This document shows positions 37,754 through 46,765 of a DNA stretch of 51,608 nt, piece by piece. The stretch is from Candidatus Falkowiibacteriota bacterium (GTDB taxonomy: Bacteria; Patescibacteriota; Patescibacteriia; Patescibacteriales; UBA12465), in the NCBI GenBank assembly GCA_903847415.1, contig CAINDR010000018.1, forward strand, positions 1 to 51,608, written 5' to 3'. Each line of letters opens with the position of its first letter. Position 1 is the stretch's first letter. Made by a program: the position numbers and the translations under genes. The notes under the pieces were generated by a model, which was given only the letters and a program-made list of their open reading frames with translations, did no database searches and was not told the DNA's origin.

Positions 37754-37773
37754 TCAAATATCAAATATTAAAG

Positions 37774-37805
37774 AAATACTTACCAGTTGGTGAGTATTTT
37801 TTTGT
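37774..37805 (+). terminator. Intrinsic terminator of the rpsB-tsf-ricT operon
   Basis: An 11-bp stem (37774-37784 with 37789-37799, one T-G pair) around AGTT, followed by a T-run, 20 bp after the stop. Confidence 0.85.
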
Positions 37806-37833
37806 TTAATATTAAAGGTAATGTTGCTAATGA

Positions 37834-37862
37834 TTGACAATATTATTATTTTATGTTATAAT
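37834..37862 (+). promoter_or_regulatory. Consensus sigma70 promoter, copy 1
   Basis: Perfect TTGACA (37834-37839), 17-bp spacer, perfect TATAAT (37857-37862). A TG one base before the -10 makes it also an extended -10. Among the strongest-looking promoters in the window. Confidence 0.93.
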
Positions 37863-37902
37863 TTTAGCATCGTTCCAGTACCTTGAAAACTTTCATCTAT
37901 TA

Positions 37903-37960
37903 TTTTAATTGTTGGTTTAGTTTCGAAAAAAAATCTTCGATGTTGAACCAACAATTAAAA
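37903..37960 (+). promoter_or_regulatory. Long hairpin in the leader, copy 1
   Basis: A perfect 15-bp stem (37903-37917 with 37946-37960) encloses a loop with a second TCGAA/TTCGA helix (37923-37927 with 37936-37940). It ends 10 bp before the ATG at 37971. No T-run follows, so it is not a terminator; it may stabilise the mRNA or control initiation. Confidence 0.8.
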
Positions 37961-37970
37961 ATCAAAAAAA

Positions 37971-38423
37971 ATGAAAAAAATAATTTTGTTATTAGTTGTA
38001 ATAATTTTTTGTTCCTGCGAAAAGGAGCAAAACTGTTATCAAGTTTGCTACATCAGCAAAAAGATGGTAACAGATAATCCTAGTGAGTTTCAACTCATTC
38101 AGGAGGTAGTTATTTTTTATAAGCCAGATACAGCGATGGCTTATCAAATGTTATTTGATTGTTTTATGCCCAAAATAGGGGAAAAAATAATCGAATCAAC
38201 TATTAGTTTGGTGGCATGTGTTCCGCAAACTAATAACACTTGGAAATTTACTTTCCAAGCGAATAAATGGTGGCGATTTTGTAACGCCCCATCTTCCTGC
38301 TTCTGGTATCCAGAAGACATGGACCCAGAAAGAATAAAAAAAGACATTATTTCCTCCAAAATAAAGGAATTAGGAGGGATTGAGGCGGTCGACACGATCT
38401 TTGTCGTTATGCCCAAAATTTGA
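37971..38423 (+). CDS. Small Cys-containing lipoprotein of unknown function
   Basis: 150 residues. Lipoprotein signal peptide: M-K-K-I-I-L-L-L-V-V-I-I-F-C-S-C, with the lipidated Cys probably residue 16 (F-C-S-C-E). The mature part is hydrophilic with further cysteines (N-C-Y-Q-V-C, D-C-F, A-C-V, F-C-N, S-C-F) that may form disulfides outside the membrane. It has W-W-R-F and W-Y-P-E-D near residue 100. I do not recognise the family. It is a single gene with the repeated promoter-hairpin leader and its own terminator; the neighbouring gene with the same leader encodes a different exported protein. Confidence 0.75.
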   Translation: MKKIILLLVVIIFCSCEKEQNCYQVCYISKKMVTDNPSEFQLIQEVVIFYKPDTAMAYQMLFDCFMPKIGEKIIESTISLVACVPQTNNTWKFTFQANKWWRFCNAPSSCFWYPEDMDPERIKKDIISSKIKELGGIEAVDTIFVVMPKI

Positions 38424-38433
38424 TTTAGTGTCT

Positions 38434-38467
38434 AAATCCTCGTTATTTGATTAACGAGGATTTTTTT
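38434..38467 (+). terminator. Intrinsic terminator after the lipoprotein gene
   Basis: A perfect 12-bp stem (38434-38445 with 38452-38463) around TTTGAT, ending in a T-run. It lies 10 bp after the stop. Confidence 0.92.
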
Positions 38468-38532
38468 AAAGGCAAAAAAAGAGGCGTTCGAAAGGTTATT
38501 TTGTCTAAAATATCAGATAAATTAGCAATTTA

Positions 38533-38561
38533 TTGACAATATTATTATTTTATGTTATAAT
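38533..38561 (+). promoter_or_regulatory. Consensus sigma70 promoter, copy 2
   Basis: TTGACA (38533-38538), 17-bp spacer, TATAAT (38556-38561), identical to copy 1. Confidence 0.93.
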
Positions 38562-38601
38562 TTTAGCATCGTTCCAGTACCTTGACAACTTTCATTTATT
38601 A

Positions 38602-38655
38602 TTTTAATTGTTGGTTTAGCCTCGAAAAATCTTCGATGTTGAACCAACAATTAAA
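38602..38655 (+). promoter_or_regulatory. Long hairpin in the leader, copy 2
   Basis: A 14-bp perfect stem (38603-38616 with 38642-38655) plus the inner TCGAA/TTCGA helix. The loop is 3 bases shorter than in copy 1, while the arms are identical. This pattern of conserved stems and changed loop supports a selected RNA or DNA structure. Confidence 0.8.
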
Positions 38656-38665
38656 TATTAAAAAA

Positions 38666-39520
38666 ATGAAAAAAATAATTTTAGTAATTATGATTTTGTC
38701 CATCGGCATAGCCTTTGGACAAAAAAAAGATTTAGTTCTACCAAAAAATATCGACATTTCATGGTCGACTGACGGTAGCGACCAGAAAGTGACTACTAGT
38801 TATGCCAGATCTTGGTATCAACTAGAGGCGGAGTCAACTGGAAAAAAATTTTTTTCTCTTGGCGGTAGTGCCTTCGGACATTGGTCGGTCGGAAAAAACC
38901 AAACAATTAGATTTGGCATGAAAATGAAATATTGGGAAAAGGTAACTGCAAAACAAAATGAATTACCAGGAACGACCTTTAAACAAGGAAGTTTCCAATA
39001 TTTTCTTCTTTTTTCCGATTTGAGAAGACGAGGTGGAGTGATTAGAGAGTTCCAACTTCATTCTCAAAATACCATTTTTTCTGGTGGTAAATATGCCATC
39101 AGTTTAGTTGGTAGACTGGAGATGAAGGGAAGAAATCTTGGCAAAGCTGAGGTTTTCTCAATCAATCCTTATTTTTCTGGAAGCTTGTATAACGAGTCAG
39201 CCAGAAATTTGCCAGATTTAAAAAATTTCATAATCGGTGCCTCCCTAAAGAGCTATGATTATCAGAAGTTTTATTCCCGGGAAGTGGTTTCCTTGGAATA
39301 TCAAAACAATGCTTCGGTTTTTGGACCAAAACATTGTTTAAATCTAAGAATTAATTTTTTAGGAGTTTGGGATTTATTTAAACCAGCTCCAAAAAAAGAA
39401 AATAAAATTACCTACTACAACTATTTTCCTCAAAAGGAGGAGATTGTTCTAGAGGTAAAAAAAATATCTTTAGCAGAATATCAAAAGTTTACTGATTTCG
39501 AAGTTTGTCGTCATCAGTAA
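38666..39520 (+). CDS. Exported protein of unknown function with cleavable signal peptide
   Basis: Start ATG 38666 (M-K-K-I-I-L) is chosen because it lies just after the hairpin and gives a signal peptide; the longer frame would start at a TTG inside the leader. 284 residues. Signal peptide with probable cleavage in I-A-F-G-Q. The mature part is rich in aromatic and Ser/Gly residues with alternating patterns (F-G-H-W-S-V-G-K, Y-F-L-L-F-S-D, S-L-G-G-S-A-F-G) that suggest beta strands, perhaps a beta-barrel or beta-helix surface protein. I do not recognise the family. It carries the same leader as the preceding lipoprotein gene. Confidence 0.75.
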   Translation: MKKIILVIMILSIGIAFGQKKDLVLPKNIDISWSTDGSDQKVTTSYARSWYQLEAESTGKKFFSLGGSAFGHWSVGKNQTIRFGMKMKYWEKVTAKQNELPGTTFKQGSFQYFLLFSDLRRRGGVIREFQLHSQNTIFSGGKYAISLVGRLEMKGRNLGKAEVFSINPYFSGSLYNESARNLPDLKNFIIGASLKSYDYQKFYSREVVSLEYQNNASVFGPKHCLNLRINFLGVWDLFKPAPKKENKITYYNYFPQKEEIVLEVKKISLAEYQKFTDFEVCRHQ

Positions 39521-39529
39521 ATCAGTCTT

Positions 39530-39568
39530 AGCTCACTTTTTGAAGAAAGTGGGCTTTTTTATTTTTTT
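39530..39568 (+). terminator. Intrinsic terminator before gapdh
   Basis: A 10-bp stem (39530-39539 with 39546-39555, one T-G pair) around a 6-base loop, then a long T-rich tract. It lies 10 bp after the stop. Confidence 0.88.
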
Positions 39569-39576
39569 GTCATTTA

Positions 39577-39585
39577 TGTTATAAT
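39577..39585 (+). promoter_or_regulatory. Extended -10 promoter of the gapdh/hydrogenase operon
   Basis: TGTTATAAT (TG-n-TATAAT) at 39577-39585, about 40 bp before the gapdh ATG. No good -35 at 17 bp because the position is inside the terminator T-tract. Confidence 0.55.
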
Positions 39586-39624
39586 TTAAATAATTAATAA
39601 AATTAATTTAAAAATCATCTCTAT

Positions 39625-46100: not shown

Positions 46101-46130
46101 GTTTACTTTTAGCCCTATTTCCCCATCCTA

Positions 46131-46159
46131 TTGACAAAATATAATAACTATGATATACT
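46131..46159 (+). promoter_or_regulatory. Strong sigma70 promoter of the 46316 gene
   Basis: Perfect TTGACA (46131-46136), 17-bp spacer, TATACT (46154-46159). The leader to ATG 46316 is about 150 bp, long for this genome. Confidence 0.88.
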
Positions 46160-46232
46160 TTCTTTTGTTAGTATTTCTTTAATAATTTATCATCTTTTCT
46201 GTTTTTGAAGCATCTTTTCTTCTTACAGTTTT

Positions 46233-46286
46233 TGTCTGAATTATCGTGAAATTAATTATGCTATTGATTTCACAATAATTCAGACA
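46233..46286 (+). promoter_or_regulatory. Near-perfect 24-pair hairpin in the 46316 leader
   Basis: Arms 46233-46256 and 46263-46286 pair at 23 of 24 positions (one C-A mismatch, one G-T pair) around a 6-base loop. The 3' arm ends 30 bp before the ATG and no T-run follows, so it is not a terminator. Between it and the gene lies a GGAGG (46296-46300), 15 bp before the ATG and preceded by a 7-codon mini-frame (46287-46310). Confidence 0.75.
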
Positions 46287-46315
46287 ATGTCGTCTGGAGG
46301 AAAAAAATAAAAAGA

Positions 46316-46765
46316 ATGGAAAGTTTAAATAATTTATTGGCAAATAATCCAATGTGGACAATTTGTCTAATTATTGCAATGGCGGGAGTTATTGTAATGT
46401 TGATGGTTGATGCTTCAAAAAAAGCGTCAAAAAACAATGAATTAAAACAGGATGTAATCCTGTTTGCAAAATCATTATCGCTGCTTCTTAGGTCAGGAGC
46501 AAGTGGATATAATATCCACGATCTTTATTTGACAAGGCAAGGATACTTTAATGGAGTTGAGTACAAGGAGGAAAACCTCATTAACTTAGCAACGGAAGCC
46601 CTTTTAATTAATCTAAAAAAATCAATTGATTACGAAAAAACGATTAAAATTGGAGATCCAAGGTTAAAGGCTTTGGAACAATTTGATAACAATAGTTATC
46701 GCACGATGATGCAACAGCTTTCCCAAAAAAAGTTGTTGGATTACTCCGAGGAAGTAGAAAAATAG
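46316..46765 (+). CDS. Small single-span membrane protein of unknown function
   Basis: 149 residues. A short lead and one membrane helix (about residues 15-33: I-C-L-I-I-A-M-A-G-V-I-V-M-L-M-V), then a soluble helical domain with many Lys/Glu/Asp residues. That topology puts the domain in the cytosol if the N-terminus is out. I recognise no family. A dense GGAGG lies 15 bp upstream of the ATG, one of very few Shine-Dalgarno-like motifs in the window though too far for optimal use. The gene is single, with a long hairpin leader and its own terminator. Confidence 0.7.
   Translation: MESLNNLLANNPMWTICLIIAMAGVIVMLMVDASKKASKNNELKQDVILFAKSLSLLLRSGASGYNIHDLYLTRQGYFNGVEYKEENLINLATEALLINLKKSIDYEKTIKIGDPRLKALEQFDNNSYRTMMQQLSQKKLLDYSEEVEK

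Follow-up and report, generated by a model that had tools for sequence, protein, structure and literature searches.

An undescribed RNA control element stands before dozens of unrelated genes, many of them encoding surface or secreted proteins, in a family of tiny, mostly uncultured bacteria. That it is a cis-acting structured leader RNA, selected for pairing and re-used before unrelated genes, is well supported. In the genome studied here (G000; 0.93 Mb in 64 contigs) the leader family has the layout promoter, box GNNCNTTNAMAAA, 33-bp hairpin and ATG. The window, which is the whole stretch of 51,608 nucleotides that was analysed, is contig C18 of this genome. Its first end (1-141) and the ends of several other contigs share exact overlaps of 120-141 bp, as expected of assembly-graph ends.

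Two single-gene units, each made up of promoter, leader, hairpin, gene and terminator, lie in the window between a ricT-like PSP1 gene and gapdh. They form a direct repeat (37833-37987 in unit 1 and 38532-38682 in unit 2) with 94% identity, which runs from the -35 hexamer into the signal peptide codons, beyond which the units are unrelated. In total, the repeat units span ~160 bp (37833-37994 and 38532-38690), and blastn widens them to 37797-37994 and 38496-38690, the identity then being 87%. The hairpin sequence of the two units has no other match within the window. The ricT-gapdh gap (37754-39624 in the window) was compared with relatives, among them loci L030, L033, L044, L048, L052, and L055. 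In many of them it is ~100 nt long and contains no gene, in others its genes are different ones, and it is therefore a variable site. The best explanation for the window pair is a duplication of the promoter-leader-signal peptide segment. The original prediction had described a mobile or copied cassette; a copied control element is what we find, but mobility is not borne out at this site, as none of the ten neighbouring proteins matches a recombinase or transposase family. Together with a leader in G060, a genome from a different genus of the same bacterial family, units 1 and 2 make up the three copies that we call family A.

Both unit promoters (37834..37862 and 38533..38561, forward strand) have the exact consensus TTGACA-N17-TATAAT and are the same throughout, spacer included. 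The perfect promoter predicted for the paired units is thus confirmed, and the window has no other exact match. The genome holds 13 (the unit promoters being 2 of them), and 0 matches to a reversed control pattern. The leader hairpins, also on the forward strand, comprise 18 bp, a 2x2 internal loop, 5 bp and an 8-nt loop in unit 1 (37903..37960) and 18 bp, a 1x1 mismatch and 5 bp in unit 2 (38603..38655). Compared with dinucleotide shuffles, the hairpins fold with z scores of -7.4 (unit 1) and -9.9 (unit 2), 0 of 200 shuffles being as good. As had been predicted, the outer arms of 14-15 bp do not differ between the units and the hairpin ends shortly before the ATG, at a distance of 10 nt in both. 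The 3-base indel and the substitutions that distinguish the two hairpins are present too, but they had been assigned to the loop, whereas some of them adjoin internal loops. On inspection of the sequence, the hairpin is followed in both units by an A-rich stretch and then the AUG; an intrinsic terminator or attenuator was rejected, given this A-rich stretch in place of a U run. A leader-encoded peptide was likewise rejected, the stretch being in frame with the gene of unit 2 but out of frame with that of unit 1. The terminator of unit 1 (38434..38470, forward strand) has a perfect 12-bp stem and a T run.

The sequence CUUUCAU 5' of the hairpin could pair with the AUGAAA start and mask it, which would make the leader a start-codon switch or a thermosensor. 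In each of the three family A leaders, the minimum-energy fold pairs the AUG with CUUUCAU, and the predicted unpaired probability of the AUG is 0.01-0.27. However, shuffling the 5' flank with the hairpin kept gave equally good masking of the AUG 3 to 37 times in 200, so that in two of the three leaders the masking is no better than chance. In another hairpin leader the AUG is open, and the predicted masking is nearly constant with temperature, which argues against an RNA thermometer. We regard masking of the start codon as quite unlikely to be what the leader is for.

The genes of the two units share only their first codons, so that the predicted lack of relationship past the first residues holds. 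ORF1 (37971..38423, forward strand) encodes a lipoprotein-like orphan of 150 aa that starts MKKIILLLVVIIFCSCEKEQ, and ORF2 (38666..39520, forward strand) an orphan of 284 aa that is predicted to be exported. Neither has a Pfam match, nor does ORF1 have one in NCBIfam; ORF1 has no relative among the 98 genomes searched, and ORF2 has a single one among the genomes searched, in G060. The structure models of the two proteins have a mean pLDDT of 45-46, and no reliable fold match was obtained for that of ORF2. Of the pair foreseen originally, a lipoprotein and a beta-rich secreted protein, the lipoprotein-like character and the signal peptide stand, while the beta-rich fold appears only in a low-confidence model. 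A phage origin was considered and rejected, as viral collections contained no relatives of either protein or of the stem.

The element is not limited to one duplicated pair, as the original prediction had it. The covariance-model search it had proposed for further copies in related genomes found homologous leaders, and a single-pair duplication is ruled out by this order-wide result. The model R2, built from three leaders of the same genome outside the window (family C, with copies on contigs C11, C13, and C30), first yielded further members in that genome and one in G009. Across the order, leaders were matched in 33 of 111 genomes, including 31 of the 39 in the bacterial family of G000, with about 87 full-length matches and up to 11 copies per genome. 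Tandem copies ~1 kb apart, as in the window, are found in G003 (contigs C6 and C9) and G015 (contig C32).

Thirty leaders from the R2 matches were aligned (alignment A7). In this alignment, 92.4% of the cells pair, both-sided changes occur in 22 of 33 base pairs (shuffled mean 10.1; 0/500 shuffles) and the covariation score is 0.350, higher than in any of the 500 shuffles (0.187 shuffled, at most 0.088 in slid controls); these pairing and covariation counts are inflated by fitting to a model of the same structure, and the slid and shuffled controls lie far below them. The promoter was absent from the model, and TTGAC is nevertheless found at most 48 nt upstream in 30 of 30 leaders, compared with 4.3% at random positions. 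The lower stem and the box are conserved in sequence across genera. Compensatory stem changes, which the original prediction had proposed to look for, are missing from the three copies of family A but abundant in the 30 members of A7. The perfect arms of family A, over 14-15 bp, would also suit a palindromic DNA operator to which a regulator binds, the RNA hairpin then being incidental. We find this very improbable because A-U/G-U alternations and compensatory changes preserve RNA pairing in alignments A4 and A7, and G-U pairs serve an RNA and not a DNA palindrome.

The proteins downstream of the 30 leaders include only two related pairs. A hydrophobic N-terminus is present in 19 of the 30, compared with 325 of 1221 genes in general (p 3.5e-5), signal peptides being called with a simple hydrophobicity rule. 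The idea that exported proteins are placed under one element thus stands as regards unrelated proteins, but in roughly one gene in three the N-terminus is not hydrophobic. Neither the window units nor the leader family matches Rfam release 15 at the gathering threshold, in agreement with the earlier statement that no named family was known for the leader. With its strong covariation and no Rfam match, this is apparently an undescribed structured RNA family, and it occurs in bacteria whose gene regulation is almost unknown.

A second model, R3, was built from the 30 A7 leaders with family A left out. It matches unit 2 at 38565-38694 (41.1 bits, E 2.6e-4), unit 1 at 37866-37994 (32.1 bits, E 0.019) and the G060 leader (30.1 bits, E 0.048), the E-values being rough owing to a shortened calibration. 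With the filters off, the scores are 41.0 bits for unit 2 and 34.8 bits for unit 1, and over 1.3 Mb the top-scoring matches that look unrelated reach 23-25 bits. The family A box AGUACCUUGACAAC aligns under the box of the leader family. Family A leaders are divergent members of the leader family, with unit 1 and G060 marginal when taken alone. On contig C17 of the same genome, the leader of a 412-aa exported protein (L082 2051-2182, minus strand) scores 30.3 bits with R3 (E 0.044) and is likely another divergent member.

The repeat and hairpin surveys of the genome took in 628 kb of its 928 kb as stretches, the remaining third being searched only. An all-against-all comparison of the 628 kb revealed two further sets of duplicated promoter-hairpin leaders before unrelated proteins, families B and C. 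Family B consists of 46128-46322 in the window and a twin in L138 (G000:C20:23779-23971) with 78% identity; it is unrelated in sequence to the window pair and has GGAGG ahead of the ATG. The window copy, on the forward strand, includes a promoter (46131..46159; twin G000:C20:23782-23810), a boxA-like box TTTCTTTAATA (46174..46184; 10/11 to GYTCTTTAANA) and a hairpin (46232..46287) in which two pairs are altered on both sides relative to the twin. The two genes encode mutually unrelated membrane-anchored orphans, of 149 aa in the window (46316..46765, forward strand) and of 114 aa in the twin.

Further structured elements were noted alongside. Two hairpin leaders on the minus strand of L114 (G002:C2; starts 4112 and 9698) end 7 nt before the ATG, and their loops, CTCGTGTTTTTT[CT]GTAG, resemble each other. 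The gene behind one of them is IscU-like, and the two leaders are perhaps another leader RNA class. On the minus strand of L086 (G000:C1), the same 11-bp TATTTGTTATT hairpin lies 5 nt before each ATG of two nearby BRO-N-like genes of 276 aa (~4642 and ~5596). The IscU-like and BRO-N-like genes are named by sequence appearance only. Rfam identifies 16668-16935 of L158 (G000:C54) as a group I intron, at 88.5 bits.

Upstream of the hairpin, the A7 leaders have a conserved box, TAGNNCNTTNAMAAATAAG, which resembles boxA and whose positions G, C, T, T, A, and A are conserved in 28-30 of the 30 leaders. The best-known examples of boxA come from rRNA operons, from phages and from a few mRNAs, and in rrn and nut sites it occurs together with a stem-loop or with one strand of a long helix that covaries. 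For E. coli, boxA is described as necessary and sufficient to recruit the components of the rrn antitermination complex (PMC10250234), and in suhB it acts in the mRNA leader near the start codon (PMC5725501). Scored with a matrix built from 8 other leaders, the window boxes on the forward strand are GTACCTTGAAAAC in unit 1 (37878..37890; score 7.0, 40/2000 shuffles as good) and GTACCTTGACAAC in unit 2 (38577..38589; 11/2000 shuffles as good). Taken as GTACCTTGACA and GTACCTTGAAA, these boxes fit the published boxA consensus GYTCTTTAANA (PMC5725501) less well. At 5-32 nt past the -10, boxes with at least 10/11 matches to this consensus precede 13 genes in the sampled relatives and 7 in G000 (controls 0, 1, and 0 in each case). 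The family C matrix gives a box peak 9-17 nt after the -10 in sequences outside the matrix set. From its sequence and position, we hypothesize that the box is a boxA and that the leader would work through it. Box-like sites also occur upstream of two 23S genes, in G033 and G009, but alignment shows that these sites are not at matching positions. A simple-motif search of the sampled stretches found no NusB candidate.

Many box-bearing genes have short leaders without a hairpin, and therefore box and hairpin may act separately. In L104, L118, L126, and L134, among others, short hairpin-free leaders carry a boxA-like box 6-20 nt past the -10, and many of the genes concerned are ordinary ones. boxA may be a general 5' feature of mRNAs in this lineage, and the results suggest that it is common at mRNA 5' ends in these bacteria. 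The occurrence of the box without a hairpin is also compatible with a different role for the leader, in which the hairpin is a 5' stabiliser or an RNase III switch that protects the mRNA or is the substrate of a double-strand nuclease, with the box as an unrelated general leader feature. In keeping with this, the hairpins of 23-33 bp sit just before the AUG, and strong hairpins at most 40 nt from the ATG precede 21 of 317 genes with intergenic upstream regions, compared with 2 after shuffling. However, the covariation and the conservation of lower stem and box across genera exceed what a generic double-strand blocker would need. We consider stabilisation or nuclease control a serious contender, with somewhat less than an even chance of being right.

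We think it probable, with some reserve, that each unit is a single-gene expression module with a structured leader RNA, which the bacterial family has re-used before unrelated accessory genes. In such a module, a strong promoter of the sigma-70 type would start transcription ~7 nt after the -10, and a boxA-like box, the putative NusB-S10 site, would lie within the first 10-25 nt of the transcript, followed by a long AT-rich hairpin and, 3-30 nt beyond it, the AUG. The box would recruit NusB-S10 to the nascent RNA and tether the RNA to RNA polymerase while the hairpin folds; this tethering may keep a weakly translated transcript from being terminated early or degraded, and the hairpin may tune the access of ribosome or nuclease at the AUG. 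Transcription from the leader promoter, NusB-S10 binding and an effect on termination, decay or initiation are what we infer for these steps. An argument against antitermination is the lack of an obvious use for it in genes of 0.4-1.2 kb, each of which ends at a terminator of its own. More broadly, and more tentatively, Patescibacteria of this family may control tens of accessory genes, many of which encode exported or membrane proteins, as one regulon in which a portable boxA and hairpin leader feeds nascent mRNA to NusB-S10 and modules are exchanged between genes and genera; we see this as possible, with the balance somewhat against it.

The leaders of rrn, lambda nut and the suhB 5' UTR (PMC10250234, PMC5725501) resemble those described here in having a boxA-consensus motif near the transcript 5' end, and the boxA of E. 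coli suhB is likewise part of an mRNA leader, close to the start codon (PMC5725501). In contrast to these systems, the leaders here precede tens of unrelated accessory genes, which are single and short rather than rRNA or long operons, the hairpin is downstream of the box and abuts the AUG, and NusB binding is putative. The LoaP-dfn leader is another 5'-leader hairpin and acts on elongation, an effect that is only proposed here (PMC12691694). The dfn hairpin is of the UNCG type and serves long gene clusters with internal terminators (PMC12691694), whereas the hairpin here is long and AT-rich, with no leader terminator after it.

The G060 copy, which was detected through a protein search, bears on how the leaders spread. 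Unit 2 and G060 have 94% DNA identity over 199 bp of promoter, leader and signal peptide, and the unit 2 terminator (39531..39560, forward strand) matches that of the G060 gene over 32 bp at 97%. By comparison, the whole proteins are 28% identical, the mature region has ~35-46% DNA identity over most of its length, and aligned vertical segments of the two genomes mostly have 69-78%. The 5' module is more similar than the gene body and so apparently shares a later ancestor. As the leaders are more alike than the genomes at large, transfer or an exchange of modules is indicated, although the leader may instead be under very strong constraint. The best explanation for unit 2 and the G060 gene is that the 5' module was exchanged recently and that the protein bodies are old and have diverged. 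This suggests mobility of the leader element. A DNA search with the leader in 60 relatives and a sample of the class gave only short promoter or A-rich matches outside G000. If modules are exchanged, they offer tiny genomes a route to place newly acquired surface proteins under existing control.

A conserved leader, signal peptide and 3' terminator around a diverged protein body, along with the tandem units in other genomes, would also fit a cassette for surface-antigen variation, with the 5' module as a recombination handle for shuffling coding regions. Such a system is known in Mycoplasma bovis, where a conserved non-coding stretch (70 bp) and signal peptide similarly precede variable exported proteins (PMC3365025). 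However, the vsp genes form one cluster, which adjoins a tyrosine recombinase gene, and their description includes no covarying leader (PMC3365025), whereas the leader copies here are few per genome, scattered, present in many genomes and followed by mostly unrelated proteins. The lack of a recombinase beside the window pair and the third of genes without a hydrophobic N-terminus also count against antigenic variation, which we judge unlikely, although variation by recombination could coexist with the module mechanism proposed above. G060 and G000 also share a probable insertion-sequence end (L021 4302-4442 and L088 122-262) with 96% identity, far above the vertical identity.
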